NCBI GenBank assembly: GCA_016218575.1
Contig: JACRDN010000019.1
Location: 186,001-250,000 of the forward strand
Source: Elusimicrobiota bacterium
GTDB taxonomy: Bacteria > Elusimicrobiota > Elusimicrobia > UBA1565 > UBA9628
Length of the DNA stretch: 64,000 bases
Reading direction: 5' to 3'
Positions 26,099 through 63,700 of this stretch are shown here, piece after piece; positions within the stretch are counted from its first letter, which is position 1; each line of letters opens with the position of its first letter. A model generated the notes under the pieces. The model was not told the origin of the DNA. It saw only the letters and a list, made by a program, of their open reading frames with translations, and made no database searches. Position numbers and translations under genes: made by a program.

Positions 26099-26111
26099 TT
26101 TGGAGGTATTC

Positions 26112-35493: not shown

Positions 35494-35522
35494 TTGACAA
35501 AAACTAGGGCCAGGGCTAAACT
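35494..35522 (+). promoter_or_regulatory. Promoter of array genes 4 and 5
   Basis: TTGACA (35494-35499), 17 bases ending GGGCCAGGGC, TAAACT (35517-35522). ATG 35530 follows after 7 bases, so a start at or next to the A of the ATG is expected. In-frame GTG/TTG codons upstream fall inside the promoter and are rejected as starts. Confidence 0.8.
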
Positions 35523-35529
35523 GACACGC

Positions 35530-37071: not shown

Positions 37072-37072
37072 T

Positions 37073-40022: not shown

Positions 40023-42671
40023 ATGGACGACAAAGAGAAGGACAAGGAAGAGAAAAAGACCGGGCTGCCCCTTCCCTCTTTGAAGGGCTCCACCAAGCCC
40101 GGCGTTCCGGGAGGCGCTCCCCAGATCCCTTCCCTCAAGGACGCGACCAATCCCTCCACCTCCCGCTTCAAGGGCTTCGGCCTCGGCGGGAGCACCTTGA
40201 GCGAGCGCCTCAAATCTTTCAAGAAGAAAGATTTAGCCTTCATTTTGGCGGGCTTGGGCGTTCTTCTCATGGCGCCCTTGGCCGAGCATTTCCTCATGAG
40301 CCCGTCGAACGAAAACGGGGCCTTCAAGGAGGGTTGGGGATTCCGGGACGGGGTCGGGGGCTTTGGCAAGGGGGGATCTCCCTACGAGCCGGGGATCACC
40401 GGGCTTTCCCCGGGGAACCTGGTGGGCGGGGGCTCGGACGTCATCACCCCCTTGAACGTGCGCGACCCTTCCGCCTTGGTCCTGGGCCCAGGAGCCACCC
40501 AGCAGCCCCCGGCGGGTGCCGTGACACCCCCGCCCTCGGAGGCTCCGCCCAAGGATGACTGGAAGAAGACCTTAAAGGACGCGGCCAACGCGGCCGGCGG
40601 GGCCGGGGGCCGGCCGAGCCTGCCCGTGCCCAAGATCAATTTCGCGGGGCCGGCCTTGCGGGGCCTGGGCGGCGGAGGCGGCGGAGGGACCGGGGCGAGC
40701 TATTCCTTGGCCCCGATCTCGGCGGCCAACGTCCCCAACAAGGCGGCGGGAAGCAACTCCTTGACCAACGTCCGGCCGGTGCAGGGCTTTAAGGGCGCTG
40801 CCGGCGCCCGGGGGCTCACCAGCGGCCATCCGGGCAATTTGGAGGAGCTCAAGAAAAACGCGGGCTCCCAGGGCACCGATTTCAACCGCGGCGGTTCCGC
40901 GGCCACCGCGCTCGAGCAGGCCGCCAACCGCGCCATGGGCCAGGGCAGCGACGGCCAAGGGGGTGCTGGCGAGCAGGGCCGCGGCGGCGAGGACAAGGGT
41001 AACAAGGAGAACCAGGACAAGGCTGCCAAGTCCACCGGGGATTCTTTGGATTTCCTCCTCAGGAAATCCCGCCTCGAGAAGGAGCTCGACCTCGAGTTCA
41101 AGAAGCGCGAGAAGCGCGAGATGTTTCCCATCGAGCTGCAGCAGAAGTTCATCGAGAAGCTCGCCATGGCCCCGGCGGATGCGTTGGCGGAGTTTGTGAA
41201 GGGCGCGATTAAGGATGCTGGCGTCGCGGCGGGAGCTTCAGCGATTTACAAGTGTCCAAATGGCTCTAAGTTTAAAAAAGATGAAGTCAAACCTAACTGT
41301 AATACTGAGGAAAATCGAAAAAGTCCTTGTATTTTGGCAAAGAAGGATGGGCAGTACACAATTTCTGTTGGGGGGACACAAATTACAGGCTGTTACCTTG
41401 ATTCGGGGGATGCCGATGATTCCAAAGGGCCTCCTCAAACAGACCCCTCGGTTGGCGGTATGAATCCTGGTTCATCTGAAACTGTTAATAAGACTTTTGA
41501 AGAGGACTGTAAGGCTCTCGCGCTTTGGACCCAGGAAAAAATAGCTGGTGGTAAATCTGGTGTGATTTATAATGATGTCCAAAAGGCCGGCAGTGATTAT
41601 GCACTTGCTATCCGCGAGCTTGTCGCCGCAAGTTGGGGTCTTTCTGGGGCAAGGAAAACTGGAACCATCCCAAGTTGCGTTTCCTCTAATAACGATGATT
41701 ATTCACAAGAGGTGCTTCTCCCAGGCTGGAATATTCAAGAGAGGCTTAGGGAAATTGAGAGAACGCTTATTGGCAAGCCTGATGGGGCGTTGAGGAGGCT
41801 TACCGATGTTTCGATCTTGGCTACGGCAGCTCACACTCAATTGGTTAATATTGAGGATGGCCAAAAGGCGGATTTGGAGAAAAAGGACGCTGATATGTCT
41901 TTAGCATTAGGCGTAATTGATTCCGCTACTGCGGTTCCAACTCAAGAACAAAAGAATGAAGTAAAGGTTGCTGCAGAGGCAATTGTTTCTTTGACAGTGG
42001 AGGCCTCTGCTGTAAAAAAACTTATTGATGAGATGCAAGTGACATATAAAGCGATGACAAAGACAGATTCGCCAGTAACCTCGGCAAAGCTCGCTAACGC
42101 TAAAAAAGAATTGCCTGCTCTAGGAGATGCTCTTAAAAAAGTGGGAAGTCATATTGAGGCAGCGACTGCTGCAGGCAAAAGGGCCCAAGAATTCCAAAAA
42201 AAATTTTCTGGGAATAAGGATTTGGAAGGCTATTATAAGCAAGGAGAGGCATTAAACACAAAAATCTTACAGCAAAGCGAACAGATTGATATAATAACAG
42301 CTCAATATGAGAAATTCCGCAGAACAAATATGCTGGCAGCTGTAGAGAATGCTAAGTATAATGAAATAAATGCGGTCGTTAAAGAGAATGGCAAGACATT
42401 TGAAGCTATTCTAGATGATAAAGATGATAAAGTAAACGCTAAGAAGTTGGGCGTGACTGCCAGGAAGATAAGCGAAAAAGTTGGGGCGTTGTCGGCACTT
42501 CCAAACGGGGGCGTGCACTTCAAGGGAGAATTTGACACACAAATGACTCAAACTCAAGGCAGTATTAGAAGTGTGGGTGCGGAGATTTCTGGATATAAGA
42601 AAACCAATGAATTTAACGCCAATGACATAGAGCGACGAGGTATAGCCTTGGGGCTTGGTTTGAATCCGTAA
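40023..42671 (+). CDS. Large mosaic protein with array-type N-terminus and AT-rich coiled-coil C-terminus, member 7
   Basis: The 882-residue protein has an acidic/basic head (DDKEKDKEEKKTGLPLPSLK), a membrane helix (about 73-90), a G/A/P linker with NRAMGQGSDGQGGAGEQGRG near 300 and a K/E-rich helix near 350. The last 490 residues are a hydrophilic domain with three Cys and then mostly coiled coil. At about 41200 the DNA changes within a few codons from about 70 % GC to clearly lower GC with A/T-ending codons, with no break in the frame. This suggests the two halves have different origins. The C-terminal half has no recognised domain. Confidence 0.75.
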   Translation: MDDKEKDKEEKKTGLPLPSLKGSTKPGVPGGAPQIPSLKDATNPSTSRFKGFGLGGSTLSERLKSFKKKDLAFILAGLGVLLMAPLAEHFLMSPSNENGAFKEGWGFRDGVGGFGKGGSPYEPGITGLSPGNLVGGGSDVITPLNVRDPSALVLGPGATQQPPAGAVTPPPSEAPPKDDWKKTLKDAANAAGGAGGRPSLPVPKINFAGPALRGLGGGGGGGTGASYSLAPISAANVPNKAAGSNSLTNVRPVQGFKGAAGARGLTSGHPGNLEELKKNAGSQGTDFNRGGSAATALEQAANRAMGQGSDGQGGAGEQGRGGEDKGNKENQDKAAKSTGDSLDFLLRKSRLEKELDLEFKKREKREMFPIELQQKFIEKLAMAPADALAEFVKGAIKDAGVAAGASAIYKCPNGSKFKKDEVKPNCNTEENRKSPCILAKKDGQYTISVGGTQITGCYLDSGDADDSKGPPQTDPSVGGMNPGSSETVNKTFEEDCKALALWTQEKIAGGKSGVIYNDVQKAGSDYALAIRELVAASWGLSGARKTGTIPSCVSSNNDDYSQEVLLPGWNIQERLREIERTLIGKPDGALRRLTDVSILATAAHTQLVNIEDGQKADLEKKDADMSLALGVIDSATAVPTQEQKNEVKVAAEAIVSLTVEASAVKKLIDEMQVTYKAMTKTDSPVTSAKLANAKKELPALGDALKKVGSHIEAATAAGKRAQEFQKKFSGNKDLEGYYKQGEALNTKILQQSEQIDIITAQYEKFRRTNMLAAVENAKYNEINAVVKENGKTFEAILDDKDDKVNAKKLGVTARKISEKVGALSALPNGGVHFKGEFDTQMTQTQGSIRSVGAEISGYKKTNEFNANDIERRGIALGLGLNP

Positions 42672-44382: not shown

Positions 44383-44411
44383 TTGCCGGGGTCGAGCTTC
44401 GGGGGTATGAT
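44383..44411 (+). promoter_or_regulatory. Promoter of the 1118-residue exported protein gene
   Basis: TTGCCG (44383-44388), 17 bases, TATGAT (44406-44411). Unlike the promoters of the array, it leaves a leader of about 35 bases with GGAGAG (44442-44447) before ATG 44452. Confidence 0.6.
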
Positions 44412-44451
44412 ATGGGACCGTGTGCGCCAAAGCCCCTTTGTGGAGAGTGGT

Positions 44452-47400
44452 ATGAACGACAGGCGATTTTTGAAGGTCTTCCTTGCGATTTCCCTCGCTT
44501 TAGCTTTGGCCCCGCTGAAAGCCTCCTCCGAGCAGAAGCTGAAAATGGCGACGGTCTTCGTCAATGACAATAACGACACCACGGTGCGGTTCTTTTATGT
44601 AGAACGAGACGCCCTCAAGCTATTGATGTCCGGTCCGGAGCCGGAGGACGGCTCCAAGGAAAGGTACGACGGCGTTCCCGGCAGGTCCGCGCCTCTTTGG
44701 GAGAAGAGCTACAAGAGCCGCGCCGAAATGCCGACGTTGACGGCCGAAGAGGCCGCGAAAGCGCCTAAGCTGATCCGCCTTAAAGAAGGCAATAAATTTA
44801 AGCTGGTTTATTGGGCCTCCTGCGATAAATGCGGATGGAACTCCTTCCACTCCCTGGCCAGGGAGCTCACGATGCCCAAGGACGAGCCCGCGGCCAAGCC
44901 GGACAAGCCCGCCCCCGCTCCGGCCACGCCCGGCGCCAAGCCCAAGCCTAAACCCGCCCCGGCGCCGACGCCCGAGGCCAAGCCCGAGGGCGTTTCCGAC
45001 GAGATTTGGGATCTGTCCAATCACAAGCCGGCCCTGGCCGAGGCCTTGCAGAATTACGTTGCCAAGAGCAAGGACAGCTCTTTTCCAGGCAAGCTCAAGG
45101 CCGCCAGCCAGGAAAAGCGCGACGGCATCTTGAACCGCGTCCTCGCTATGCTCGACGCGGGCAAGAGCGAGAACGAGGTGCGCCAATTCCTGGCCTATGC
45201 CTCCAAAACCTTATCCGGTTCCGGCCCCGCGGCCGGCCCGGCGGGCTCTCCCGGCGGAGGGGCTCCGGCAGGGGCCAGCCCCGGCCCCGCTTCCCCCGGC
45301 CCCCAGGCGCCTCCAGCGCCGGGCAAAAAGGACACAGGAACCGGCAAGAAGGACGAGGGCAAGCAGGAAAACCCCATCAATACCTTGGCCGGGCTCTTGA
45401 AAGATCCCAAGACCCGTGATAACGTCAACCTCAGCATCGCGGAGCGCTTCTTCAACCTGACGGCCAAGCCCAGGAAGGACAAGAAGAGCTACATCACCGA
45501 CGAGGTCGCCAAGGATAAGGGCAAGGTCCTCCAGCGTCTCAAGGGCGAGATCGAGGCCTTGGTGAAATCCGACAAGGGGGCCTTGAAGGACCCGATGACG
45601 AAAGCCGAGCTTTACTTCGTGGTCGGGGCCGACAAGGAGGCTCCCTCCTGGGCCCAAGGCAACGTCATGCTCAAGAACTCCTTGAGCTCCGGCGCCAAGC
45701 TTTCCTTCCGCTCCGATTTCGACAACAAGATGGCGGATTGGACGGGTGCCGCCAAGGCCCCCGGCCAGAAGGGCCAGTATGTCGGCAAGGACGATGCCTC
45801 GAAATGGACGATCGCCTTTTTCACGGACGGCGCTTCCCAGGCCCATGCCCTTCTCAATGATCCCAGAGTCAAGAAGGAGATCGAGGATAACATCAAGAAG
45901 AACTTCCAGGGCGACAAGGAGCCCGTGCCCGGCACCCCGGACGGCGGCCAGAAGCCCGCCTTCGCCATGGGCAGCAAGCGCCCCCTCAACGTGGATGACC
46001 TCTACATCAACGGCGCCCGGACCGCCTACCTCCCCATCCCCGGCACCTACGGCAAGAAGGCCAACGGCCAGATGGATTTTGACTACCGCCGCGTGTCGCT
46101 CAAGCTGTACACGGAGGTGGTCATCGGAGCAGACGGCTACCCCGTCATGACCAATAAGGTGGATGTTGAGGATATCTCGGTCCCCGGCGACGACCACAAG
46201 CCCGGGATTTTCGGGCGGCGCCTGCCCATCCCCCAGGGCGGCACGCGCGTCGAGGACGCCAACTTCCACATTGACGACCGGGTCTCCAACAGCCACGCCT
46301 ACAAGGTGGTCTTCGAGCCCAACGGGGACATGGTTTTCACCTTGCCCGACGCCCAAATGAAGCAGGCCAAGGCCGACGCCACGAAGAGCCTTTCAGGGGA
46401 GGAGGCCGTCCAAGCGGCCAAGGACTTCGAGGCCAAATGGACGATCAAGACCAGCGTCTCCGACCTCTACAACGTCCGGCGCGAGCAGATCGCCAAGGAA
46501 GGCTGGTCTGAGGAGATCAACGGCCAGTATTTCCGGGTGTTCGGCCAGGGCGGGCCCAAAGGGGCCTGGCTCTACTACAAGGCCGACAAGAAAACAGGCC
46601 AGCTCTCGGGCACGGGCTATACCCCCGGCATGATGGCCTACGTCAACAAGGTCGGAGCCAACGGGGTCGAGATCGTCACCGATCCCCAAGCCTTGGGCTT
46701 CATTGGGAAATCCCCCAAGGACCCGACCAAGGATCAATACTATTACCAGCAGTGGAACCGTGAGGCGCAGAGGTTCGAGTACAACCCCAAGGACTTCACC
46801 GCGCCGCCCAAGGGCGAGAACACGGGCGACCCCCAGACCCCGCCGGATGGTGGGACTCAGCCGCCCGAGACTCCAGGCGATGGCGGCAATCCCCAGCCTA
46901 ATCCCGACCCCAACGGCACCACTCCGCCCCCGGCCCCTGGAGGCGGCGGCAAGCCCGCCCCAGGCGCGGGCGGCAAGAATGATCCGCAGAACCCGTCCCA
47001 GGCGCCTTCTTCGGCGACCCCGATCGAGAAATGCAACGACCCCGAGGCCTTCAGCAACGCCGGAGCCCCGCGCACCAGCAGTTTCGGCGGCAAGAAATGG
47101 TCGTATTGGGTCAACGACGACGGGATGACCTATTACTGCCTCTACGGCAACGGCTTCTTCGCCAGCCAAGGGTATCTCGCCAATATTGCCGAGACCGACA
47201 GCGAGTTGCGCGTCACCATAGTGACCGTGGAGAACCCCACGGCTGGGGTGGACCGCATCAGCCTTGAAAGCATTCGAGAGGGCGTTACCATCGCTAAACG
47301 CCAGGGACATCCCGACGTGGAGCTTCACGTCTCCGGCGTTTCCATCCATTATCTCCCCAAGAAGGGGCTTCTGGCCAAGACCGGCAAGTCGCAGGCCACC

Positions 47401-47808
47401 CAATTCTCCAAGGTGGGCTGGCTCGTGGAGGAGCGCGACAAGCGCAAGATCGGCAAGAAAAGCGAGCTCCGCGTTTATACCGACGAGAACGGCCCGGACC
47501 GGGTCAAGGCCGCCATGGCCATGCTGATCAAGAACAGCGAGGACAGCGGCGTTTTCGGTGGGGACACCAACGCTGGCAACCGCGAGAAGCTCTTCTCCTT
47601 CCTCAACCGCCACATCGCCCAGGACAAGAGCCCCCTCAAGGAAACGGCCAGGCCCCATGCCCGGATCAACCTCCATATCGACGAGCCCAGCCGCGACGGC
47701 CAGGACGTGATCGTCTACTGGAACCGCGCCACCCAGAGGACGGCCCTGCAGTGGGTCAACCCCCAGGGCGGGCCGGGCCCGCACCTGGAGGATCCGGCCG
47801 GGAAGTAG
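44452..47808 (+). CDS. Large exported protein with Pro/Ala-rich linkers, unknown function
   Basis: ATG 44452 (signal peptide LKVFLAISLALALAPLKASS) is preferred over upstream in-frame starts because GGAGAG precedes it and the promoter lies before it. The 1118-residue product has an N-terminal domain with CDKCGW, a Pro/Ala/Lys linker near 145-180, a helical region, a Gly/Pro linker near 265-310, a large central region (about 330-790), a second Gly/Pro/Asn linker near 790-850 and a beta-rich C-terminal domain (about 860-1118). Three Cys occur in the C-terminal domain. I recognise no family. Its modular, linker-joined layout suggests a secreted or surface multi-domain protein. Confidence 0.78.
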   Translation: MNDRRFLKVFLAISLALALAPLKASSEQKLKMATVFVNDNNDTTVRFFYVERDALKLLMSGPEPEDGSKERYDGVPGRSAPLWEKSYKSRAEMPTLTAEEAAKAPKLIRLKEGNKFKLVYWASCDKCGWNSFHSLARELTMPKDEPAAKPDKPAPAPATPGAKPKPKPAPAPTPEAKPEGVSDEIWDLSNHKPALAEALQNYVAKSKDSSFPGKLKAASQEKRDGILNRVLAMLDAGKSENEVRQFLAYASKTLSGSGPAAGPAGSPGGGAPAGASPGPASPGPQAPPAPGKKDTGTGKKDEGKQENPINTLAGLLKDPKTRDNVNLSIAERFFNLTAKPRKDKKSYITDEVAKDKGKVLQRLKGEIEALVKSDKGALKDPMTKAELYFVVGADKEAPSWAQGNVMLKNSLSSGAKLSFRSDFDNKMADWTGAAKAPGQKGQYVGKDDASKWTIAFFTDGASQAHALLNDPRVKKEIEDNIKKNFQGDKEPVPGTPDGGQKPAFAMGSKRPLNVDDLYINGARTAYLPIPGTYGKKANGQMDFDYRRVSLKLYTEVVIGADGYPVMTNKVDVEDISVPGDDHKPGIFGRRLPIPQGGTRVEDANFHIDDRVSNSHAYKVVFEPNGDMVFTLPDAQMKQAKADATKSLSGEEAVQAAKDFEAKWTIKTSVSDLYNVRREQIAKEGWSEEINGQYFRVFGQGGPKGAWLYYKADKKTGQLSGTGYTPGMMAYVNKVGANGVEIVTDPQALGFIGKSPKDPTKDQYYYQQWNREAQRFEYNPKDFTAPPKGENTGDPQTPPDGGTQPPETPGDGGNPQPNPDPNGTTPPPAPGGGGKPAPGAGGKNDPQNPSQAPSSATPIEKCNDPEAFSNAGAPRTSSFGGKKWSYWVNDDGMTYYCLYGNGFFASQGYLANIAETDSELRVTIVTVENPTAGVDRISLESIREGVTIAKRQGHPDVELHVSGVSIHYLPKKGLLAKTGKSQATQFSKVGWLVEERDKRKIGKKSELRVYTDENGPDRVKAAMAMLIKNSEDSGVFGGDTNAGNREKLFSFLNRHIAQDKSPLKETARPHARINLHIDEPSRDGQDVIVYWNRATQRTALQWVNPQGGPGPHLEDPAGK

Positions 47809-47822: not shown

Positions 47823-48995
47823 CTACTTAAGTCCGGAGAGCAGCTTGTCCGCGGAGATTATCCGCACGCCGTTTAAGAAGCGGTCGATCCCGTCTTTTTT
47901 GACGACCTGGTAGACGAATGGGATACTCAGCTTTTCCTGGAAATACTTGAGATGGGGAGATGGGTTCTCGTCATTGAGCTTGGCCTCCACCGCGAACCAG
48001 GGCTTTTCATCCACCGCCACCAGGAAGTCCGCCTCCCGCTTGGCCGTGTCACGCAGGAAGAAAAGCGCCGCCTTGTAGCCCTCCCGGTCGCGCAGCCAAT
48101 GGACCAGCTTGAGCAGGTGGGAGGCTACGAGGTTTTCGAACCGCGCCGGCTCCTCTGGGACCTCCGACCAGTCCCAAAGGTAGAGTTTGGGCTCCTTCTT
48201 AAGGGATCTAAACGAGCCCCGCGCGAAGGGGTAAACCCGGAAGTGATAATAGAAGGATTCGAGAATATCCAGCCAGTGGGAAACGGCCCGGTGGCTTAGG
48301 TCCAGGTCCCCGCGAAGCGAGTTGGCCGACAGCAGCGAGCCCACCCGGGCCGGCAGCATGTCGCTCAAGACCTGCATCTTGCCCAGGTCGCGCACCAGCT
48401 CCACGTCGCGTATGTCCTCGCGAAAAAGCCTCTCGCACCGCTCGCTGTGCCAACGCCGCAGGTTGCGATCGTTCTGGGAAAACAACGGCTCCGGAAATCC
48501 TCCGAAGCGCTCCAGGGCCCGCAATTCGCCGCTCGACGGCGCGGAGCTCAAGGCAAGCTCCTTGAAGGGCTCTATGTCGTTGTCGGCGTTTTTCATCTCG
48601 GCCAGGGAAAAGGGATGGAGGCGATAATGGTGATAGCGGCCCTGCAAGGAATCTCCACCTCGGCGATAAATCTCCATGCGGGCGCTTCCGGTAACCAGAA
48701 AACGGTATCTTTCCTGGAAGACGTCGTATTGACCCTTGAGGAAGCTCTTCCAGCCCTTGAATTTATGCATCTCATCGAGGATGATGAGCTCGGCCGGGCC
48801 GGGCCATTGGGCCGCCATGATTTGGCGGCGGTCTTGGCGATTGTCCCAGTTGAAATAAGCGGTGTCGTTGAAGAACTCCCCGACGAGGGCCTTGGCCAAG
48901 GTGGTTTTGCCCACCTGCCGAGGCCCCCCGAGAAAGACCATCTTGGCCTTGAGATCCTCGGCCACGGGCGCGGTTAAATAGCGGTTTTTAACCAT
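47823..48995 (-). CDS. AAA-type ATPase with DUF4143 domain
   Basis: The 390-residue protein has Walker A GGPRQVGKTT (about 23-32), Walker B AELIILDEMHKFKGWK near 68-84 and sensor LVTGSARM, followed by the DUF4143 C-terminal domain with RFENLVASHLL and the nuclease-like EADFLVAVDEKPWFAVEAKL. This AAA_14/DUF4143 class is common and frequently horizontally transferred; its role is not well defined. It starts at ATG 48995, 5 bases after a good -10 box, and is transcribed away from the giant protein downstream. Confidence 0.9.
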   Translation of the reverse strand: MVKNRYLTAPVAEDLKAKMVFLGGPRQVGKTTLAKALVGEFFNDTAYFNWDNRQDRRQIMAAQWPGPAELIILDEMHKFKGWKSFLKGQYDVFQERYRFLVTGSARMEIYRRGGDSLQGRYHHYRLHPFSLAEMKNADNDIEPFKELALSSAPSSGELRALERFGGFPEPLFSQNDRNLRRWHSERCERLFREDIRDVELVRDLGKMQVLSDMLPARVGSLLSANSLRGDLDLSHRAVSHWLDILESFYYHFRVYPFARGSFRSLKKEPKLYLWDWSEVPEEPARFENLVASHLLKLVHWLRDREGYKAALFFLRDTAKREADFLVAVDEKPWFAVEAKLNDENPSPHLKYFQEKLSIPFVYQVVKKDGIDRFLNGVRIISADKLLSGLK

Positions 48996-49169: not shown

Positions 49170-52100
49170 ATGAGGCGGCAATTTGCGCCCGAGAAATTCC
49201 TCTCCTTGGCGCTTTCGGCGGCTCTCGTGCTGTCCGGCCCGGGGTTCCAGGGCTGGCTTCTATTCGCCGAGGTCCCGGCCGCCCAGACCGTCCAGAGGGT
49301 CATAGACCCCAGGACCAACCGGATATACAAGCTCGAAAGGCCGGTGGTGAGCAATATCCGCCTTCTCCTTAGCCGCCCCGACATCTTAAACCGCCTGGAC
49401 CCGGAGTTTCGCCAGCGCACCTTCGAGTTTTTGAACCGCGCCGGCGAGCTCGCGGGAGGCTCCCCGGATCTGGTGGAGAGGCTTTCCAAACTCGAGAGCG
49501 ACCTCCAGAACTTGAACGGCCGCGACCCCGGGATCCTGCTCACCCAGGCCTTCGCTAACTCGGCCTACCACGCCGGCAAGGCCGAGGGGGGGCGGGTCCA
49601 TACCGAGTCCCTCGTGGAGGACCAGTACGAGAGACGCTACCGGGTCAATAACTCCCACATCGGGCGAACCCAGCAGGACGTGGACATCCAGGAGATCAAG
49701 CACGGCTTCCAGCGCTTCGTGGTGCGCCAGCCCGACCCCAAGCATCCGGGGCGCGAGGTCATCGAGCAGGTCGGCTACCAGGCCTACGAGCGCGGGGCCG
49801 AGAAGCAGAAGATCGCCTACAGCCGGACCTTCGCCGAGATGCTGCGCCTGATCATCCGCTTCTTCCACGACCGGCCCGACATCAAGGACCTCTTGGACGA
49901 CGGAAAGGTCCCGGAGAAGAGCAAGGAAGGCTTGAGGCGTGAGCTCAAGCTCATCCAGGCCCAGTTCCCGAAGGAGCTCCTGGGCTATGAGAAGGAGTTG
50001 AAGCTCCTCGAGGCCCGCATCCAAGAGTCCCCCGATCTCAACCCCGAGGAGCTGAAATTCGAGGCCAAGAGGCTCGAGGGCATGCAGGCCCGCATCCAGG
50101 CCTTCTACAACAACAACCAGCTTGAGATGCTGCAGAAGACCTTGCTCGCCCAGTTCGTCTTCTACTTCACCATGATCTCCGGCACCTCCTTCAACCCCTT
50201 CGACAAGAAGGACAACACCGGGGTGGACCTGACCCGCATGAGCCTAAACGATATCCAGGGCATGCTTTCCAACTTCGAGCAGGGCTGGATCCCGGGGACG
50301 GGCTGGATCCCCTGGAAAGCGAGTTGGAGCGACATGGACTCCAACAAGCACCTGAGCTTCGAGCTCCAGATGATCGCGAGCGAAGCCATCCAGTACCTGA
50401 ACTTCGCGGCCGACGCCCAGAGGCGCCTCTACAGCCCGGAGAACATGAGGAAGGCCCTATTCAAGCCCGAGCTCACCAAGCAGGACCGCGAGGCGACCTT
50501 GGCCGAGATGGACCGCTGGGTGCGCCTGGCCCAGCTTCACATCCAGCGCTTCGAGGTGCAGAGCCTGGCCGTCCAGGTTTGGCGCCTCAAGGAGAGGAAG
50601 CTCAAGGGCGAGTTGGGCCTGTCCAGCGAGGACCCGCTCATGATCAAGCAGGCCGAGCGCATGATCCGCACCGCCGAGGCCGAGATTTTGCCCGAGATGA
50701 GGAAGCTCGAGGGCTCCTCGCGCGAGTCCCTCATCCACGAGACGGCCTACGCCTTCTCGACCGCTTTGTACCGCGCGCGCTACGCGAGCACGAATTTGGA
50801 GGCCTTGGAGGATGACGTGCATGAGCTCCTGGCCCAGGCCCGGCAGATGCGGGCCCTCTTCCAGGCCAAGCAATTCAACATTTTCCTGTACTCTCCGGAG
50901 ATGCGGGCGAAGTTCTCCGCGGCCCAGCAGGCGCAGGGCAGTCTTTACGCGCAGTTCCTGGGGAGCTTATCCCCCCAGGCCAAGGAGACCTTGGCCATCT
51001 TCGACGCTCTCCTCAACGACTTGCAACGCCTCCAGCAGAAGGGCCTTTCGGTCTCGCAGGTCAAGGACAGCCTCTACCCCATCCAGCTCCAGCTTAAATC
51101 ATTGGTGGCACTTCTGGGCATGTCCTCCATCCCCAACCCCGAGGGCCTGAAAAAGGAGGCTGACCGGCTCAAGGTCTACCAGGCCAACCTCGGGGCCGTG
51201 GTGCAGAGCTTCAGCACGAATTTGCGGCTTTTCGACATGTTGAACGAGCTCCAGATCTACATGGGCATGTACGGCAGCTCCAAGTGGAACGAAAACGAGA
51301 AGTGGTACGAGCTCAAGCAATTCGACAGGTTCTTCAACGGCATCACCGGCGGCCTGCGCGACAAGGCCGGCGAGGAGACGGCCCGGCTCATGGACCCCGA
51401 GGCCTGGGAGGTCTTGAAGGGCAAGGAAGGGGTGAGGCTGGACGCCATGGACCTCCTGCGCAAAGGGCGGTTCAACGAGGTCCTTTTGAAGCTCGCCGAA
51501 CTCGACCCTAGGGGCGCTGAGACCGCGCGGGTGCGATTCCTTCGCGACCAGCAGGACCCCGAGCTCGATCTTGACATCGTCTCGCTTTTGAGCAAGGGGC
51601 CGAGGAGCCCCGACTCGGCCGCGGCCGTGGGGGCCCTGAACGGGGCCTTCGAGCATTTGACCACCTATATCAAGGGCTTTATGATCGGGACCGCGGCGGT
51701 GGACGCCGTGGCCGGGACCTTCGCCATGGCCGGCGTGGGGCCGCTCATCGCCAAGGCCTTCACCGTGGCCGGCCGGGCGGCCCTCGGGGTCTCGCGCCTG
51801 GCGCGCCTGGGGGCCCTCGGGCGCATGGCCGAGAATTTGGGCATGCTCCAGCGCATGATCGGGTTTGCCGGCAAGCTCTCCCCGGGGCTTTTCCCCGGGA
51901 CCTTTCGGTTCGCGGGGAAGATATTGACCAACGTGGGCCGCAACATCCGGGTGACCTTGGGCCTTCCCGCCAATTTGAAGGAGGCCATGGTTAAATCCCT
52001 AACCTTGAGGGGCTTTGCTAACGTGCTCCTGAACGCGGGAAAATTCCAGATTAGGAACACCATCACCATGGCCTTGGCCAGCGCCATGATGTCGGAGGGC

Positions 52101-55100
52101 ATCCACCTGTGGTCCCCGGAGACCTCGCCTTTCAAGGACTCCCAGGACGCCATCACTCAAGGCCTGGCCGGGGGTGCCGGCTTCGGGGCCAAGACCGGCT
52201 TCCTGCTCTTGGCCAACCCCTTCCCGACCACGGCCTTCGGCAAGACCGGCTTCGGGGGCGTTATGCGCCGCCTGGGAGAGTCCAACGGCCCCCTCGAGGC
52301 CTGGGTGCTCAATCCCCTGGCCCGGGCCTTCACCCGCGCCCCCGGGGAGACCGCCATGGCCAAGGTCGGGTTCTGGGGCTCGGCCATGCAGTGGGCCGAG
52401 AACCTCTCCGGGGCCGGGCTCAAGGTCGGCGGCCGCCAGGTCTGGGGCTCGGGGCTGGCCAGCCAAGCTTTGCGCCAAGCCGCGCAATGGCTGGTCTTCG
52501 CCGGGTCTTTCGTGGATGGGGGCCTCAAGTATTTCGCCGCGGCCGAGATGAGCAAGGAGCTGGCCACGGTCGGGGGCTACGGCTGGGCCGAGCTTCTCCA
52601 ACCCGAAAGGGACCGGGGGGATTTCGCGGCCTCCGGCCACATCAACCGCCTCACCTACGCCCAGTCCTGGGGCGACGGGGCCCAGCAGGTGTCGTGGCTG
52701 CTTCTACCCACCCAGCCCCATGTCTCGGTCGAGAACATGAGGGACTGGAAAGAGAGCTCCCGTGCCCTGCACACCTTGAACAAGCAGGGCCGGCTCATGG
52801 ATGTCCTCGGCAAGGACGCGGCCCTCGAGGGGAGACTTCACGTTAACAAGCCTCTCCTGCAATGGGGAGTAAAGGAGTTTCTCGGCTTCATTCTAAACCG
52901 CACCTGGGGCCGGGTCCGGGGGCACCCGCAGATTGGGCGGCCCAAGGACAAGCTTGACATCTCCCCGGAGCTTCAGGCCATGGTGGTGGAGAGGATTTGG
53001 AAAAGCCTCGGCCGTCAGGCCTACCGCTTCTCGATTGCCGATCTTATCGCCATCCGCTCGGCCCGCGAGGAGCTCTTCAACTCGGAGCGGAGCATGGAGG
53101 AGGTCCTGGCCGTTCTGGGAAGGGGCGACGGCTCGACCGCCGAGGAGCGCGAGGCCGTCAACTTCCTTCTCCTTCCCAGGCTGCGCGAGTCCGCCGATCA
53201 GATCCTGAGAAAGCGCCTGGGCAGCTTCTGGAACCGGGGGCTGCTCAAGGACATCGTCCGCCAGGTGCGCGAGCACGAGGCCGGCTCTCTTTCCGGCATC
53301 GAGGTGGAGGGAACGCCCATCTCCAATCCCGACGTGATCAAGGACTTGGGCGACCTCGCGGCCTGGATACTCATCGAGAAGGCCCCGATCGGGGAAAGCA
53401 AATGGGCCCCGAGACTGCACGCGGCCCTCACGCCCAACGCCCCCATGAAGCAGAAGGCGATTTTAGTCGTGGATAGGCTGGCCGCGCGGATCGCCGCGAA
53501 AAACAAGGCCGCGGGAGGAAGTCTCGAGGCCGAGGAAATCGCGGAGATGGTGGAGCGGGAAATGGACGATTTCCTGAAGGCTTACTCCCGCCCCGGGCGC
53601 GGCAACTTCCGCTGGGCCTTGGAGCGCCACCGAGGCTCCTTGCAGGGAGACGCCTTGGACCGCTACAACGCGGAGAGCTTCCTCGAAGACGCCGTGAGCG
53701 GGAAGTACCGCGACGTTGACTCTCCCCAGGCCCAAGCGCGGGTGGAGCGGGCCGTGGCCCTCGCCGCGGCGGCCCTCAAGACCCACGGGATCGTGGACGC
53801 CCACGGCAACAAGATCGCGGAGTACAAGGACGTGCAGACGAATATTTTCAAGGACTTCCTGCGCATATTCCAGCAGGAGGGAGGCGACGTTCTGAAGGCC
53901 CTCAAGGTCTACCTCTTGGCTCACACCGGGGCTGGGAAATCCGCCATTTCCATGATCATGCTCATGCCCTTGGCTCGGGCCGTCGCCAAGAAGGCGGGCC
54001 TGGAGGGGGTGGACTACAACACCCACGGCGATCTCCTGCGCGCCCAGGCCCAGGGGGTGTACCGGGCCTATTTCAAGGGGCGCCTGCCGGATTTCCGCAT
54101 CCAGAGCTACAGCGATCTCGTCCTCGAGGACTTGATGGCCATCGAGGAGGGAAACCCCTCTCCCGTGGAGACGCGCTTCCAGATCAACGACGAGTACGAC
54201 CAGATATTCCTCGAGCCTCCGACTTCCCTCGGCAAGGACTCCGGGAAAATGTCCTGGAAGAGCCCGCTCTGGGAGGCCCACCGCAAGGCCGTGGAGCTCA
54301 TAGACGCGCTCCACGCCAAGACGCGCCTTGAGGGCGAGCATTTCGCCAAGGAGCTTGAGCGGGGCGGGGACTTGGCCAAATCCTTCGATGAGGTCGAGGC
54401 CCAGGTCCTGGGATTTTTCCGCCAGGCCTTGAAGGAGCAGAAGAAAAGCCGCGATCCCGAGCTTAAGAAAGAAAGGGGAAAATTCTTGGACTTGATAGCG
54501 CATATGGAGCGCTACGGCTTTTCCCTCAAGGGCTATATCCGCAGCAACCTGATTGACTTCTACAAGACCGCGGGGATCAAGGACCCGTCCTCGGTGATGC
54601 TGAAAAGGCCCCAGAGAGGCGGCTCCGCCGACCCCGCCCGGGCCGGCGAGCAGCCCGCGGAGAAGGGCGATGGCACCTTGGCCGTGCACGGGGGCGGGAC
54701 GGCCGTGTACTCGGCCCTGGACACCGGCGGCCAGAGGATTTACTACGACGTCAAGGAGAACGCCGACATCACCAACCCCTACGAGAACCTGGCCATGACG
54801 GACGCAGCAGGGCTTCTCTCGAGGACGCGCTACATGGTGGCCCTCTCCGGCACCTTGGCCGAGATGCTGCGCCCCATCCTCGAGAGGTACGGGGTGCTGG
54901 TGCGCGGGCATTGGTCGCGGAGCCTCGAGGGCCGCACCGTGATGGGCAAGGACCGCCGGGAGTCCTTGGAGCTCATGACGAGCTACGCCCACGGCAACGC
55001 CGCGGGCGGCGGCCGGAACTTGTCCATGATCCTGATCAAGACCAACGGCGACGCGGACGCGGTCGAGAAGCTGCTCGTGGAGCGGTATGGGGTCCGTCCC

Positions 55101-56513
55101 GAAACGATCGTGCGCCACCGGGTGGGAGACACCTTCAAGGCCGAGAACCTGTTCATGGGCGAGGAGGTTCGCCGGGATAAAAATGAGGCGGCCTTGGAGG
55201 ACGGCACGGCTCGGTATGTTCTCTTGACCGTGGGGGCGAGCCGAGGCCTGGACATGCTGCTCAAGACCTACGACCGCGTCAACCTCTACATCTTGGGCAA
55301 GGAAAACATGTCTTTGTCTGGCTATATCCAGGGCAAGGGCCGCCCGCACCTCGACCGCCTGGCCCCGGCGGCTTTCAGCGACGTCTACGAATTCACCGAC
55401 GCCCAGAGCCTGTCCGAGTACCGGACCTACCGCGAGACGAGCCGCTGGCTCCTGGGCCTGGCCTCGGAGGGGCAAGGTCCCGAGCTTGCCGCCTCCATGG
55501 CCGCGAAGATCCGCGAGGAGTGGCTGTCGGCGGGCAAATACTCCAAAGGTGCGCTCGACAAGATTTCGGACGAAGCCGTGGTGCGCCGTTATCTCGGCGA
55601 GACGCGCGAGACGGTGGCCGAGGGCCTGCGCGAGCAATGGGCCAAGGAGGAGCCCGCCCGCGCCGCCGAGATCGCGGCGATGCCGGCCGAGCGGATCACC
55701 CGGGAGTTCCTCGATATCGTGGTCGCCAGGGCCAAGGCCGAGCACGTGGAGGGGATGGAGAAGCGGCTTTCGGAGCAGTTGAGGAAGGGCCAGCTCACCC
55801 CGGAGGAGGCCGCGCGCAAGCGGGCCGACATAGAGCTTGTCCGCGCCGAGCTCAATACCATGCCTCACGATGAGGCCCTTCAGTGGGCCCTGGAGAATCC
55901 CTACTCCATTTCAAATCCTAAGGTCTTGAACGCGGCTCGCGAAATGGTGCTGGCCCGGCGCTTGAGCCAGGCATTCCAGGACGAGCTCGCGCGAGCCCAG
56001 GCCGGCGATCCCTCGGCCCTGGAGAGCCTGTTGAGCGATTCCCGGCTCTACGACATGGTGGCCTCCCAGGTCCAGCGCCAGGTCGAGCTCTCGGACCTGA
56101 CCGGCTCCGGGATCATGCGGGTGGAGCGTATCCTAGAGCCCGAGGACATCCAGGCCCTGATGATAGGGGCCATCAGCCTGGTCTCCGGAGCGGGCATGGT
56201 TTGGACGCTGGCGCATATCCCCTCGTACTTCGCTTTCCTGCAGGGCTGGCTTCCGTGGCTGGGGGGCATCAACATGATGGCTCCTTGGAACGGGGCTTTG
56301 GCCTTGGCCGCGAAGGTCTCTCCAAGCCTGGCGGCGGGGTTCGCGCAATACGCGCCGTATTCAGTGCCCCCCCTGACTATGATGACCGCCTGGCTCTTTG
56401 GCTACCGGCGGAGCGCCATGGGCCAATTGGCCCCCGAGCCGAAGCCCTTTTACAAGGGCGGGCAGGCCAAGGCCGAGCCGCCGCCGGACGACGGCTCCGA
56501 GAAGCCGAAGTAA
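49170..56513 (+). CDS. 2447-residue exported/membrane protein with a degenerate SecA-like helicase core
   Basis: The protein has a signal-like N-terminus (FLSLALSAALVLSGPGF), about 800 residues of helix-rich sequence, a hydrophobic region (about 830-1150), a SecA-like motor, and two C-terminal membrane helices (about 2330-2420). In the motor, Walker A is HTGAGKSA (1585-1592), the Walker B counterpart is NDEYDQIFLEPP (from 1673; SecA has DEVDSILIDEA), motif III is VALSGTLAEM near 1891, and the motif VI region is GYIQGKGRPHLDR near 2050 (SecA: GRxGRQGD). Order and spacing fit SecA, but the arginine-rich motif VI and C-terminal zinc domain are altered or absent. The gene was probably built for a dedicated transport task; this is inference. 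Confidence 0.72.
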   Translation: MRRQFAPEKFLSLALSAALVLSGPGFQGWLLFAEVPAAQTVQRVIDPRTNRIYKLERPVVSNIRLLLSRPDILNRLDPEFRQRTFEFLNRAGELAGGSPDLVERLSKLESDLQNLNGRDPGILLTQAFANSAYHAGKAEGGRVHTESLVEDQYERRYRVNNSHIGRTQQDVDIQEIKHGFQRFVVRQPDPKHPGREVIEQVGYQAYERGAEKQKIAYSRTFAEMLRLIIRFFHDRPDIKDLLDDGKVPEKSKEGLRRELKLIQAQFPKELLGYEKELKLLEARIQESPDLNPEELKFEAKRLEGMQARIQAFYNNNQLEMLQKTLLAQFVFYFTMISGTSFNPFDKKDNTGVDLTRMSLNDIQGMLSNFEQGWIPGTGWIPWKASWSDMDSNKHLSFELQMIASEAIQYLNFAADAQRRLYSPENMRKALFKPELTKQDREATLAEMDRWVRLAQLHIQRFEVQSLAVQVWRLKERKLKGELGLSSEDPLMIKQAERMIRTAEAEILPEMRKLEGSSRESLIHETAYAFSTALYRARYASTNLEALEDDVHELLAQARQMRALFQAKQFNIFLYSPEMRAKFSAAQQAQGSLYAQFLGSLSPQAKETLAIFDALLNDLQRLQQKGLSVSQVKDSLYPIQLQLKSLVALLGMSSIPNPEGLKKEADRLKVYQANLGAVVQSFSTNLRLFDMLNELQIYMGMYGSSKWNENEKWYELKQFDRFFNGITGGLRDKAGEETARLMDPEAWEVLKGKEGVRLDAMDLLRKGRFNEVLLKLAELDPRGAETARVRFLRDQQDPELDLDIVSLLSKGPRSPDSAAAVGALNGAFEHLTTYIKGFMIGTAAVDAVAGTFAMAGVGPLIAKAFTVAGRAALGVSRLARLGALGRMAENLGMLQRMIGFAGKLSPGLFPGTFRFAGKILTNVGRNIRVTLGLPANLKEAMVKSLTLRGFANVLLNAGKFQIRNTITMALASAMMSEGIHLWSPETSPFKDSQDAITQGLAGGAGFGAKTGFLLLANPFPTTAFGKTGFGGVMRRLGESNGPLEAWVLNPLARAFTRAPGETAMAKVGFWGSAMQWAENLSGAGLKVGGRQVWGSGLASQALRQAAQWLVFAGSFVDGGLKYFAAAEMSKELATVGGYGWAELLQPERDRGDFAASGHINRLTYAQSWGDGAQQVSWLLLPTQPHVSVENMRDWKESSRALHTLNKQGRLMDVLGKDAALEGRLHVNKPLLQWGVKEFLGFILNRTWGRVRGHPQIGRPKDKLDISPELQAMVVERIWKSLGRQAYRFSIADLIAIRSAREELFNSERSMEEVLAVLGRGDGSTAEEREAVNFLLLPRLRESADQILRKRLGSFWNRGLLKDIVRQVREHEAGSLSGIEVEGTPISNPDVIKDLGDLAAWILIEKAPIGESKWAPRLHAALTPNAPMKQKAILVVDRLAARIAAKNKAAGGSLEAEEIAEMVEREMDDFLKAYSRPGRGNFRWALERHRGSLQGDALDRYNAESFLEDAVSGKYRDVDSPQAQARVERAVALAAAALKTHGIVDAHGNKIAEYKDVQTNIFKDFLRIFQQEGGDVLKALKVYLLAHTGAGKSAISMIMLMPLARAVAKKAGLEGVDYNTHGDLLRAQAQGVYRAYFKGRLPDFRIQSYSDLVLEDLMAIEEGNPSPVETRFQINDEYDQIFLEPPTSLGKDSGKMSWKSPLWEAHRKAVELIDALHAKTRLEGEHFAKELERGGDLAKSFDEVEAQVLGFFRQALKEQKKSRDPELKKERGKFLDLIAHMERYGFSLKGYIRSNLIDFYKTAGIKDPSSVMLKRPQRGGSADPARAGEQPAEKGDGTLAVHGGGTAVYSALDTGGQRIYYDVKENADITNPYENLAMTDAAGLLSRTRYMVALSGTLAEMLRPILERYGVLVRGHWSRSLEGRTVMGKDRRESLELMTSYAHGNAAGGGRNLSMILIKTNGDADAVEKLLVERYGVRPETIVRHRVGDTFKAENLFMGEEVRRDKNEAALEDGTARYVLLTVGASRGLDMLLKTYDRVNLYILGKENMSLSGYIQGKGRPHLDRLAPAAFSDVYEFTDAQSLSEYRTYRETSRWLLGLASEGQGPELAASMAAKIREEWLSAGKYSKGALDKISDEAVVRRYLGETRETVAEGLREQWAKEEPARAAEIAAMPAERITREFLDIVVARAKAEHVEGMEKRLSEQLRKGQLTPEEAARKRADIELVRAELNTMPHDEALQWALENPYSISNPKVLNAAREMVLARRLSQAFQDELARAQAGDPSALESLLSDSRLYDMVASQVQRQVELSDLTGSGIMRVERILEPEDIQALMIGAISLVSGAGMVWTLAHIPSYFAFLQGWLPWLGGINMMAPWNGALALAAKVSPSLAAGFAQYAPYSVPPLTMMTAWLFGYRRSAMGQLAPEPKPFYKGGQAKAEPPPDDGSEKPK

Positions 56514-56700: not shown

Positions 56701-56729
56701 CGGAGGAAATGTGCTATCCTGAACCCAAC

Positions 56730-57785: not shown

Positions 57786-60700
57786 ATGGGGTGTCGAAAG
57801 GCCGGTAAACGGCTCGGTTGGCTTATGGCCTGCCTGGGGCTGGTTATTTTCCAACTACGTCCGGACGTAGTCGGGGCCCAGCCGCCGGCCGGCGGCCAAG
57901 CCCGGGTTTCCGCCCTCCTGGACGCCGTAGAAAAATATAAGGTTTTTTTCAAAAAAGACCCCCACAATCCCGCCACCCGCCGCTTCCTGCCCGAGCTTCA
58001 CGAGATCAAGGAGGCCGCTTTGGCCCCCGAGGCCCCCCGGGACGTGGAACGGCTCGAGGCGCGGTTTTTGCGCTGGAAGGATGCCTTCCTGGCCTATCTT
58101 CGGGGGCTTTACGGGGAGCGCTTCGCCCGGGACGCGGCGGGCTTTGAGGCCGCGGCCCAGGAGCGGTTGGACGCTCTCATCGCGATCCGGGATGGCCGCC
58201 CGACTTTGGGCCGGGACCCCCGCCTTCTGGCCGACCTCGAGGCCTTGAAGGACGCGGTAAACCAAGGCGTGGACCCGGGGCGCCTCAACCGCTACTACGA
58301 CCGCCTGGGCCTTTCCAGGCCCTTGGCCCGGCGGGACGGCTCCATCGCCGCGGCGAGATTTTCCCGTGGGCGGGCTGGGCTGAAACAATACCGGAGGAAC
58401 CTCTCTTCCAGGGGAGCAACGCCGCCCACGGCGCATACTTTCAGTCCCAGGCCGAGCGACGCCCCGGCATCGGCCTGGGACTACTTGAAGAAGGCCTCGG
58501 AGTGGGTCGCAAACGCGGCCAAGGCCGTGGCCCGACCGTTTTTCAACCTGCTGTATAAATTCCAGGACAGCGTGGGGCTCAATATTCTCCCCAGGGCTCC
58601 GGCGCCCGCTCCCGCCCCAGCGCCCAGGCCCCAAACATCACCCAAGAGGTCGGCGGCAGCGCCCGCTCGCGCGCCCATTCAGCCGCCCGCCGCGCCGCGG
58701 CGGGAAACCGAGGCCCAGAAGGCACGAGGCCGCGTCGCCGCCCTGAACCGTCAGCTTTCCCGGGTCGAGGGCCAGATCCAGCAGGCCCGCGGCAAGGAGA
58801 GCCCCGTCACCGAGGCCGAGAAGGCGGAGTTTGACCGCATTTGGGGGGAGCTCGATCCCAAGCGCCGGGAAAGCTATATCCGCTCGAAGTTGGGCCAAGG
58901 CCATGACCTGAAGAATCCGAAGCCCCGGGATTTGCAGGACATCAAGGCCCTGAAGGCCCTCCAGGACTACTACAACGGCCTGCTCCTGCCCGGCCAGGCC
59001 GATCAGCCCGGGCTCTGGGAGAGCCTGGAGCTCCGGCTGGCCGAGCAAATGTCCCTAAGGGACCGCCTCAAGTCTTTGGCCGAGAAAAAACCCCTGGCCC
59101 GAGACCAAGGGGCGCTTCCCCGCGTGGCTCCGGAGACGGTGCAGAAAATCGAGGGGCTTCTCTCCGAGGTCGAGCGCCTGCGCGGGGAGGCCAAGGGGGA
59201 GATGGCCACTTACGAGGCCCTCTCCCAGCTTCTGGCCGCCGTCAACAAGGTCCGCAACCAGGCCTTGCGCGAGCGCCGCGACGCCAAGGAGATGCTGGCC
59301 TTCGAGAAGGATATGTCGCGCCTGGCCACGGTGATGGACCTGGCCTTCGCCATGAACCAGATAGACGCGGCCGAGAAGGTGATCCACCAAATGCTCGAGC
59401 TTCTCGAGGCCAAGCTCGCCAAGATCGGGGGGGCGCGCCAACAGAACCAGGAGGCGGCCAAGATCGCGGACGCGAATCTCGCCGAGCTCGAGAAATGGAA
59501 GGCCGAGGCCCAGGATGAGATCAGGGCCGACGAACAGCGCAAGGCCGACATCGCCAAGTACTGGGAGCAGACGGGGTTGGCCCAGCAAAGCATCGGCCAG
59601 TTCCGCGTGGAGACCGCCAACCTTTTGGATGCGATCCGCCTGCGCGACGGGGGGGACAGCGGCGACCCCATCGCCGAGTACCAGGACAAGATCCGGAAAA
59701 TCGCCGAGGTGGCCCAACAGCGGCGCGAGGGCTCCGACGCCTTCTCGCTTGCCACCCTCCAAGCGAACCTGGACCGCATCCGGAAAAGCCTCAAGCTCCT
59801 GAAGGAGGGCGTGGCCCAGCTTGAGTCGGAAAGAGACCCGGTGGAGGGCGCGGCCGTGGCCATTTTCATGGTGGTCAACGAGCCGGAAGTCAATTACTCC
59901 GGGAACCTCAGCCAGGCCTTGGACCGCGCCAATCTGCAGAGGATACTTTCCGAGCGCGAGGCCTATTGGCAAGGCCAGCTCCGGGACTTCGAGAAAAACT
60001 CGAAGTCCCTGGAGAATCTTTTGTCGCGCTCCAACTCCGCCATGACGGCCGACGAGTTCGGCTACCGCCACAAGGAGTCCTTGCCCCTCTGGCGCGATGA
60101 GGAGGCCCAAATCCTGGCCCAAGCGCAGGCGCAGGTGCGCGAGCTCACCGCTGATATAGACCAGCGTGCGGCCCGCATCAACGCGGTAGCGCAGTCTCAT
60201 ATTCCGAGCCTGGGGAACCTAGGTCTCACCGAGCTCCAGAAGGCCGTGAAGAGCTACGGGGACCATTTGCGGGTGGTGAAATTTCCAGATCGAGACGACT
60301 TGGAGACGAGCAAGGCCCAGGTGGACCTCATCCATATAGCGCGGCTCCTGCCGCAGGCGGCCGACGAGCTCATCCGCTGGTCGCGGGCCGACGGGACCAT
60401 CAAGGCCATAAATGACGCCCTTCCCAAGATATCTCCGGCCCAGGCCAGGCTCCAAGCTCTCGTCCAGATGGGACGCGACATCGTGGAGGACATCCATCAA
60501 GACCAGGTCCTCATCAACAGCGACAAGGCCTTCTCCCGGAGCCGCGAGGAGAACCAGGCGATACTTACCCGAAAGACCATCCTTCTTCGCGACAAAATGA
60601 AGCCCGCCTTGGAGGGCATGGAGGAGATGCTCTCCCTGTCCCTCATTCCTTACGTCAAGGACTCCCTCTCCTCGCTGCGCTCCGATTCTTCCGGGGACTT

Positions 60701-63700
60701 CTACAAGCTCTTCGACGCCCAGCTGGGCCTCTATAGGGAGATCAAGAAACTCTACGAGGAGACCATGCCCTGGGCTTTGGCCAGCCATGGCGCCGCCGAG
60801 GGCAACAGGAGCGAGGCCGCCGCGAAGGTCGCGGCCTGGAGAAAGCAGTTCACCGACAACTTGAACGGCTACGACGACGCCCAAGGGCATCACAAGGGCG
60901 TCGAGGAATTCCTGACCGAGGTCAAGAACCGGGACAATCCGGATTTCAAGGGCACGGAGGTGCTCTACGGAGAGCTTCAGCCCTTCAGCCTTCACAGAAA
61001 AATCAAGGAATACGAGAAGGAGCGCGCCGAGAAAGCCCAACAGTTGAAGGCCCAACATGCCGAGGTCAATAATATTCTCGCCGAAATAGAGAGTCTCTCC
61101 AAGGCCCGCTCCGCGGGCCCTTACAACCTCTTGGCCTATCGTCTGCCCACGGACATCAGCGCGGACTCGGCCGGCGCCGAGCGGGTCCAGGCCCTCGTCA
61201 ACAGCCCCCTCATCTATAGGCTGGGCGACGAGCTTAGGCGCATCGGTGTCGAGGCCAAGGCCGAGGCCGGGGCCGAGGATACCAATTTCATTCCTGCTAA
61301 TGACCAGCTACTCTCCGGCACTCAGGAAAAAGTCAAGGTTTCCGCCATGGGCAAGATCGCGCTCTTGGCCAAGAGCGCGGGCGCGCGCCTGGTGCAGTCC
61401 TCCGAGATAAAGCCCGGAGGGGCTCCGGCCTCGACCGCGATGGCGCGCTTTCTCTTCGCCGACGGGATTATCAAGGCCTCGCAGGACGCTCTTAGGGATC
61501 AGATCCCCCGGGCCAAGGACTTCCTGACCAGGGCCAAACAAGTTCTCGAGCATGCCGTCGAGCTCTCCCGGCTGGACGAGGCCTACCTCAACGGCAACGG
61601 GGAGACGGCCGAGCCGGTGTACGCCCGGCAGCTCGGCCTCTACGCCGAACTGCACTCCTTCTTGAGGGAGGGGCTGGACTTCTTCGACGTGAAGGGCCAG
61701 TGGAACGAGGACCGCTTCAAGGTCTTAGACAAGGTCCGGGAGTACTACCAGGGACTCAAGGACATCGGCCAGGGGGGGCTCGAGGTCAACGGCGGGGAGG
61801 CCGAGGCCGCGCGGAAAATGCAGGAGGTCCTCAAAAAGACCTTCGACCAGCTCGAGGCCAACCGGGCCAAGGTGGCGCGGTGGCTGGCCCAGTTGAACGA
61901 TCCCCACGAGTCGGCCGTGCGCCGTCCCCTCATCCGGATCTCCGAGATCATGAAGGAGACTCGGGCCGTCCTCGAGGCCAACATCAACTACCACGACTTG
62001 AAGGACCAAAGCGGGCGCTCGCGCCAAATCCTCTCGGCTTTGCTGGGTCAAATCGAGGACAAGCAAAACGAGCTCTCCGAAGTCCTGGCCGACCCCGCGC
62101 TCCAGGACGCTTTGCCCGCGGCCTTGGTCTCGCGCATCGAGAACCTGAGGCTCTCGCGCGGGATGTGGGCCATGCCGGGCGAGGGCAAGGACAAGGGCGC
62201 GTCGGCCTTGGTGGTGCGCAAGTCCGAGTACTCGGCCTTTCTCGACGGGCTTCTCAAGATGATCCGCCCGCAGGGCGCCTCGCAGGATCTCTCGGCCATT
62301 AAACAGGGCCTTTTGGGCAACCCGGCGGGGCTTTCGAGCTTCATCCCCCAGGCCCAGGTCCTGGACTTCGGGGACTCCGCGGACGGCTTCTATCTCGTCT
62401 ACCAGACCCGCTTCTCCGTCCCCAACGGGCTCGAGACGGAAAGCTGGGTGACCTTGGGCAACATCGCCCGGGTCCTCGGCAACAACGTAAGCGTGGTGGG
62501 CTGGCAGTTCGCCAGTCCCCCCAACGACCGCAACGCCCCCTACGGCGGCAAGGGCTTCGGCGTGCAGGTCGAGTCCATCCAGGGCCGGGACTGGGTCAAC
62601 TACTTCATGATCACCTTGCACCGCTCGGTCTTGAACGTCCCCAAGGAGGCCACCTTCGCCTCGCAGAGCCAGGAGGTACGCGTCCAGGTGTTCGAGGACC
62701 ACGCGCGCATGCTCCTGGGCGACACCCTCTACGTGGCCGCGGCGGGATACGCGGACTTCGCTTTGAACCACCCGGAGGAGCATCCTTATTATTACGGGGG
62801 CAACTTCAAGACCTCGATCAAGTTCTTCCCGGTCATGAGGCTCAACTACGAGCACCAGGAGCTCTGGGCCAAGGACCCGCGCAAATTTGATCAGGAGGTG
62901 AACCTTGACTTTGCCCACTACGACGAGTTCTTGAACAGGACCTTCCACATCCATGCCGAGGGCGCCAAGAAGCATTTCTCCCGCGACCAGCTGGGCCCGA
63001 GCTTCGACATAGGCTCTCTTCTCAACTCGGAGGACACGTTTACCTTGGACCTGTTCCTGGCCAGAAGCGGCGGCAGCGACGACATCACGCAGAGGTCCGC
63101 CGGGATCACCGTGCTCAAGGGATTTACCTTGCGCGACGACAAGGGCAAGCCCTGGATGCTCGTCAACAACGAGGCCACGGTCGAGCTCGGTGAGAAGTAC
63201 CCGACCTACGTGGACCGCCTGGCCGTCAATCTCCTCGACCAGGGCCTGGTCTTTAACGCGGAGGGCCGGCTCCTGGGCAAGGTCGGGGCCTACCATGTGG
63301 GCGTCTCCAAGACCCTCGACCAGGTGACGACCTTCAACGTGGGCTACGGCAATCCCTATCCCGGCGCCCCGCCCCGCGCCGAGGTCATGATCCGCACCTC
63401 CCAGGTCCTGGGCGAGCTCTGGGACAAGGTGACGGGCCAGGCCCGCCAGGACCTCCACGGGGGGGAGATCCTCAAGCCTTTCAACGACCGCTTGGACGAG
63501 TTCTACAAGGCCGAGGAAGGCGGCCCCTCGGCCCGCAAGGTGGCCGAGCTCAAGCGGCTCTTTGAAACTGACGTGGCCCGGCGCCTGATCAGCCAGGACA
63601 TGGGAATACTCGCCCGCGACATTCAAGCCCTGCGCAAGGCCGGGGCCATCCTCGACAACACCCGCATCGAAGGGATGGTGGGTTTCGTCTCCAAGCCAGT

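Follow-up and report, generated by a model that had tools for sequence, protein, structure and literature searches.

The locus and its surroundings

The window, by which is meant the whole stretch of 64,000 nucleotides analysed here, has a GC content of 62% and carries four genes of a conserved locus on the same strand, referred to here as A to D.

40023..42671, + strand: gene A, 882 aa, with an N-terminus rich in lysine and a single membrane segment; its place upstream of B is conserved in several genomes
44383..47808, + strand: gene B, an ORF of 1141 aa with a signal-peptide-like start; many genomes have a gene of similar size immediately upstream of C
49170..56513, + strand: gene C, encoding the giant protein P0001, 2447 aa (ATG start, 2447 codons)
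57786..64000, + strand: gene D, a second giant, which runs past the end of the window; in the genome its open frame extends over 4168 codons

The order A-B-C-D is also present in genomes G001 and G003, where the D homologues are 4960 aa and 5280 aa and are aligned over about 3900-4000 residues. D is homologous in most of the pairs tested, and genus g5 has a gene for another protein, not D, downstream of C. Gene A is homologous across 5 genomes (E 1e-62 to 1e-100), with more relatives in L040, L044, and L054, and the proteins encoded upstream of C are detectably homologous between many, not all, genomes. A TolC-like (OEP) reading of giant D was rejected. It stems from one weak Pfam OEP match, at residues 2215-2310 of the second giant of G001 (L101:2-12925; 24.9 bits against a cut-off of 22), which did not recur in the further D sequences scanned, of which some were partial, and the profile alignment is not significant.

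Between B and C there is an AAA_14/DUF4143 ATPase gene (47823-48995, - strand), and between C and D a Y1-type, IS200-like transposase gene (56709-57626). Near the locus is a gene with a Pkinase domain and tetratricopeptide repeats (28270-30315, - strand). Orphan genes encoding lysine-rich N-termini and membrane segments are found upstream (26073-27626, 32512-34395, 35494-37071, and 36929-38614); the first three form a related group, and the last three have relatives upstream of A in G002 (L040). A single ordinary SecA (923 aa) and a single SecY, the latter on a different contig from the locus, are encoded in the genome, so that C adds to the Sec system and does not replace it.

The giant protein and its family

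The ORF at 49170-56513 (+) is a real gene. Its GC content by codon position is 0.63/0.42/0.88, the pattern expected when a gene in DNA of this composition is translated, and its alignment with homologues spans the full length. Searches of Pfam, NCBIfam, PHROGs, and PDB sequences with P0001 gave no useful match, and there were zero matches to the Pfam SecA models even at E 1.

About 40 homologues, 20-30% identical, were identified, from Elusimicrobiota. One search of 57 genomes found homologues in 21 of them. The complete homologues are themselves giants, mostly of 2,356-3,437 aa, with proteins of 5,022 and 6,078 aa in one further family. The 6078-aa giant (genome G047, L047:14248 to L103:4481) combines the present motor with domains of the pyruvate phosphate dikinase type (PPDK_N, PEP-utilizers). 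A profile of the motor matches 46 of 295 genomes of the phylum, including most of the good genomes of the same order, a count in which a few of the weakest are short matches to ordinary helicase-sized proteins and some are fragments at contig ends. A scan of the genome contig collection with the single P0001 sequence found nothing, and a profile built from the family alignment found 11 loci there and 0 in the viral contig collection; tblastn of the motor against the plasmid and phage collections gave 0 matches.

It is conceivable that the motor motifs described below are chance matches, or that an assembly artefact has fused two genes, and the window itself does rest on a single contig of a draft genome. 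The same layout is however present, with no internal stops, across many independent assemblies, the neighbouring genes are conserved, and the codon-position GC speaks against it as well. This explanation is refuted by the homologues and is extremely improbable.

Elusimicrobiota are rich in huge proteins, without assigned functional categories (PMC11573180; see also PMC12057145), and the main text of PMC11573180 mentions neither SecA nor helicases. P0001 is comparable in this to the giants of Elusimicrobiota and Omnitrophota, phyla known for their many proteins of very large size and little-understood character (PMC11573180; preprint cited in PMC12057145). It is a member of an Elusimicrobiota family of giant envelope proteins for which, as for its locus, no description was found in the non-preprint literature searched. 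Almost every relative within its order has a giant of this type, often with the same neighbours, and P0001 therefore probably contributes to a cell-envelope machine that has yet to be described.

Motor motifs and their conservation

The full set of superfamily 2 (SF2) motor motifs is present in P0001, in order.

53835..53837, + strand: glutamine Q1556 of the Q motif; invariant in an alignment of 12 motor domains and conserved in at least 90% of a wider lobe-1 alignment
53925..53942, + strand: Walker A, TGAGKS, residues 1586-1591; from the sequence and alignments
54189..54200, + strand: Walker B / motif II, DEYD, residues 1674-1677; D, E, and D invariant
54201..54845, + strand: insert between motifs II and III, where SecA has its preprotein cross-linking domain; placed by motif spacing and predicted by AlphaFold2 to be mostly helical
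54846..54854, + strand: motif III, SGT, residues 1893-1895; from alignments
55242..55253, + strand: motif V, RGLD, residues 2025-2028; R and G invariant, in register with RGTD of SecA
55329..55358, + strand: motif VI, Q-GKGRPHLDR, residues 2054-2063; Q, R, and R invariant, in register with QLRGRCGR of SecA

The original prediction listed Walker A, DExxD, SGT, and GKGRPHLDR in SecA order. The order and all of these motifs are borne out, with GKGRPHLDR at residues 2055-2063, except that motif II reads DEYD and is therefore of the form DExD, not DExxD; Q1556 and the RGLD of motif V are additions to that series. In the 12 motor domains, of which the other members are 22-29% identical to P0001, the invariant residues are T, G, and K of Walker A, D, E, and D of motif II, S and G of motif III, R and G of motif V, and Q, G, R, and R of motif VI. 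The core catalytic residues are likewise invariant or conserved in more than 90% of the wider lobe alignments of 30-31 members. That homologues of 20-30% identity retain these residues as well as a signal-like N-terminus argues that the motif series has not arisen by chance, and such conservation, far beyond chance in divergent proteins, suggests that the motor is a working ATPase.

SecA-like or generic SF2 motor

SecA is a soluble protein of about 900 residues, and bacterial protein export is thought to use a few types of motor. To call the motor of P0001 SecA-like, as was done originally, is supported in part, by its predicted fold, its motif spacing, its DExD and [ST]GT motifs, and its lobe-2 profile, but not as membership of the SecA family, since there is no Pfam SecA match and lobe 1 is at least as close to generic ResIII/DEAD motors as to SecA.

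An AlphaFold2 model of residues 1440-2215, made from 12 sequences, is of moderate confidence (pLDDT 65, pTM 0.50). Its order of strands and helices, with the SF2 proteins matched by Foldseek, indicates tandem RecA-like lobes at this moderate confidence. When the model was compared with the PDB, ranks 1 to 16 were all SecA (best E 7.7e-9), with MDA5 next at 5.5e-7; the TM-scores to SecA in that search are low, at about 0.33.

The spacing between motifs II and III discriminates between motor types better than scores do. It is 181-1390 residues in the family and 218 in P0001, against 184-189 in SecA of the same phylum and 26-37 in those RecG, Mfd, UvrB, and ResIII-type controls in which the motifs could be located, with 176-178 in one further control group; the control families are named from their motifs and sizes, and the measured set is one without DEAD-box and PriA-like proteins. 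The family shares DExD and [ST]GT with SecA, in place of which DExH or DExQ and SAT or TAT are seen in the controls measured. In profile-profile alignment of lobe 2, SecA scores above every other family compared (46.7, P 3e-5, 171 columns), its motifs III, V, and VI lining up with those of the family, and a single DEAD-box protein reaches a similar P over 65 columns.

The motor might instead be of the nucleic acid type, a ResIII/DEAD-like translocase captured by the giant, whose likeness to SecA would be due to convergence or to the common SF2 fold. Lobe-1 segments of the homologues match Pfam ResIII (PF04851; 26/31) and DEAD (PF00270; 17/31) at E <= 0.1, and SecA_DEAD once among the 31 (E 0.027); such matches, with homologues exceeding Pfam cut-offs, equally support the SF2 assignment made in the preferred interpretation. 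The lobe-1 ResIII/DEAD match is a property of the homologues and is absent in the window protein. Matches of PDB profiles to lobe 1 are to Brr2 and DEAD-box helicases, with SecA far lower, and those to lobe 2 are to DEAD-box chains, weakly. Several controls, ResIII-type included, outscore SecA in profile-profile alignment of lobe 1, and for lobe 2 the Pfam matches are Helicase_C, weakly, in 10 of 30 segments and P-loop_SecA once (E 0.0014). Against this, the DExD and [ST]GT motifs and the large insert are of SecA type, SecA tops the fold search, and the short motif II-III spacing and SAT-type motif III of ResIII/DEAD motors were not found. A nucleic acid motor would also sit poorly with the export-type N-terminus and with neighbouring genes whose products have signal or membrane segments, and this explanation is considered rather unlikely.

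The preferred interpretation, of a motor that would be SecA-like in its working parts and not of proven SecA descent, also has to accommodate differences from SecA. Both have two RecA lobes, the Q motif, DExD, [ST]GT, RG.D, and motif VI, and a large motif II-III insert at the same place, and SecA (SecA_DEAD, SecA_PP_bind, P-loop_SecA) is the best match by fold in the PDB. Unlike SecA, the motor of P0001 is part of a fused protein of 2447 aa whose N-terminus is of export type, has no SecA Pfam match, SecA_PP_bind included, and has an insert that is very variable in length in the homologues and predicted to be mostly helical with few strands, at a confidence that is partly low. No PPXD, helical scaffold, or two-helix finger was recognised in the motor; C-terminal helices, in the place where SecA has its helical scaffold, wing, and two-helix finger, are predicted by AlphaFold2 at low confidence. 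An HMM of the motor failed to separate SecA from other SF2 proteins, so SecA assignment by this route was rejected and membership is not claimed from sequence. From ResIII/DEAD motors, which are matched by Pfam to lobe 1 in most homologues, the family differs in its long motif II-III distance and in having DExD and SGT, not DExH/DExQ and SAT/TAT.

A genuine SecA domain is present in another giant, from a genome of the same class, a 5255-aa protein with an export-type N-terminus and a DnaJ domain (L104:2161-17925, genome G048), for which Pfam gives SecA_DEAD (205 bits), P-loop_SecA, and SecA_PP_bind. It is similar to P0001 in combining an export-type N-terminus and a SecA-type motor in one giant, and differs in that its domain is of the real SecA family, accompanied by DnaJ; it was not found as a member of the P0001 family.

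Membrane segments and topology

Outside of the motor, the following features are seen in P0001.

49170..49283, + strand: signal-peptide-like N-terminus, residues 1-38, read from the sequence by eye, with cleavage after VPAA as a guess
49284..51659, + strand: N-terminal region, residues 39-830, conserved and largely helical, with a sheet of six strands at about 143-218 (alignment, AlphaFold2), presumably periplasmic
51708..51770, + strand: conserved, marginally hydrophobic segment, residues 847-867, a candidate single membrane crossing that recurs in most homologues
56154..56210, + strand: C-terminal hydrophobic helix, residues 2329-2347, from hydropathy; not conserved in homologues

The signal-like N-terminus of the original prediction is present, and the complete homologues also begin in this way, many with an AxA-type site when read by eye. 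In several giants of the phylum that differ from one another (among them L090:9175, L090:20351, G047, G213, and the second giant of G001), the N-terminal hydrophobic stretch has a common ending of about LLxTAPGxG, which is possibly a lineage-specific sorting signal. An AlphaFold2 model of residues 23-1222 is mostly helical (pLDDT 60), and no match to solved folds was found for the N-terminal model at E <= 0.001.

The membrane helices that had been described at the C-terminus amount to one clear helix, at about 2329-2347, and a second stretch near residue 2376 that is marginal by hydropathy, neither being conserved in the family. A central hydrophobic region does exist, but it is a single, marginal segment at 847-867, with a Kyte-Doolittle mean of 1.48 over 21 residues. 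Most members have a hydrophobic segment about 700-950 residues before Walker A, with values of about 2.2 in some and 0.8-1.1 in others. Over 24 members, the C-terminal flank of this segment has 114 K/R and 58 D/E residues, and the N-terminal flank 103 and 107; a net positive C-flank beside a neutral N-flank would favour a cytosolic location for the C-terminal side.

Alternatively, all of P0001 may be exported, leaving the motor outside the cytosol either as a structural relic or in a place where ATP is supplied, for example in a contacted cell. The signal-like N-terminus is found throughout the family, and most members, P0001 included, are without a strong internal membrane helix, none being found in an approximate membrane-insertion scan of P0001; giants of related phyla have also been interpreted as surface weapons (PMC12057145). 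That the catalytic residues are kept at 20-30% identity nevertheless argues for access to ATP, and the recurring marginal segment has its positive C-flank, so that export of the whole protein is judged unlikely. Placement of the motor in the cytosol, which was suggested at the outset, is plausible from the recurring segment, its positive C-flank, and the conserved ATPase residues, but the segment is marginal and the placement unproven.

Proposed mechanism and significance

The explanation as a whole is that P0001 is an envelope giant with a cytosolic SF2 motor of SecA type, which would use ATP to move polypeptide and would work with A, B, and D; the chances of its being right and of its being wrong are put about level. 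In such a scheme the ordinary SecYEG/SecA would carry the N-terminal 800 or so residues across into the periplasm, the segment near 847-867 would halt transfer, and residues from about 870 to 2320, including the motor, would remain cytosolic. The motor would then hydrolyse ATP, with closure of the lobes leading to polypeptide movement as in SecA, while the large motif II-III insert may act as a clamp facing a substrate or partner. The motor would in this way serve a dedicated assembly in the envelope, of which A, B, and giant D would also be components.

A more specific proposal, and a distinctly more doubtful one, is that a membrane-anchored, dedicated SecA-type motor, with the N-terminal half of the protein in the periplasm, drives an undescribed machine for envelope export or assembly with A, B, and D, parallel to ordinary Sec. 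A conserved family that builds a SecA-like motor into a giant of the envelope, with a second giant encoded alongside, would link cytosolic ATP to work in the envelope in a new manner, and the P0001 family offers a tangible starting point for understanding the giants of Elusimicrobiota.
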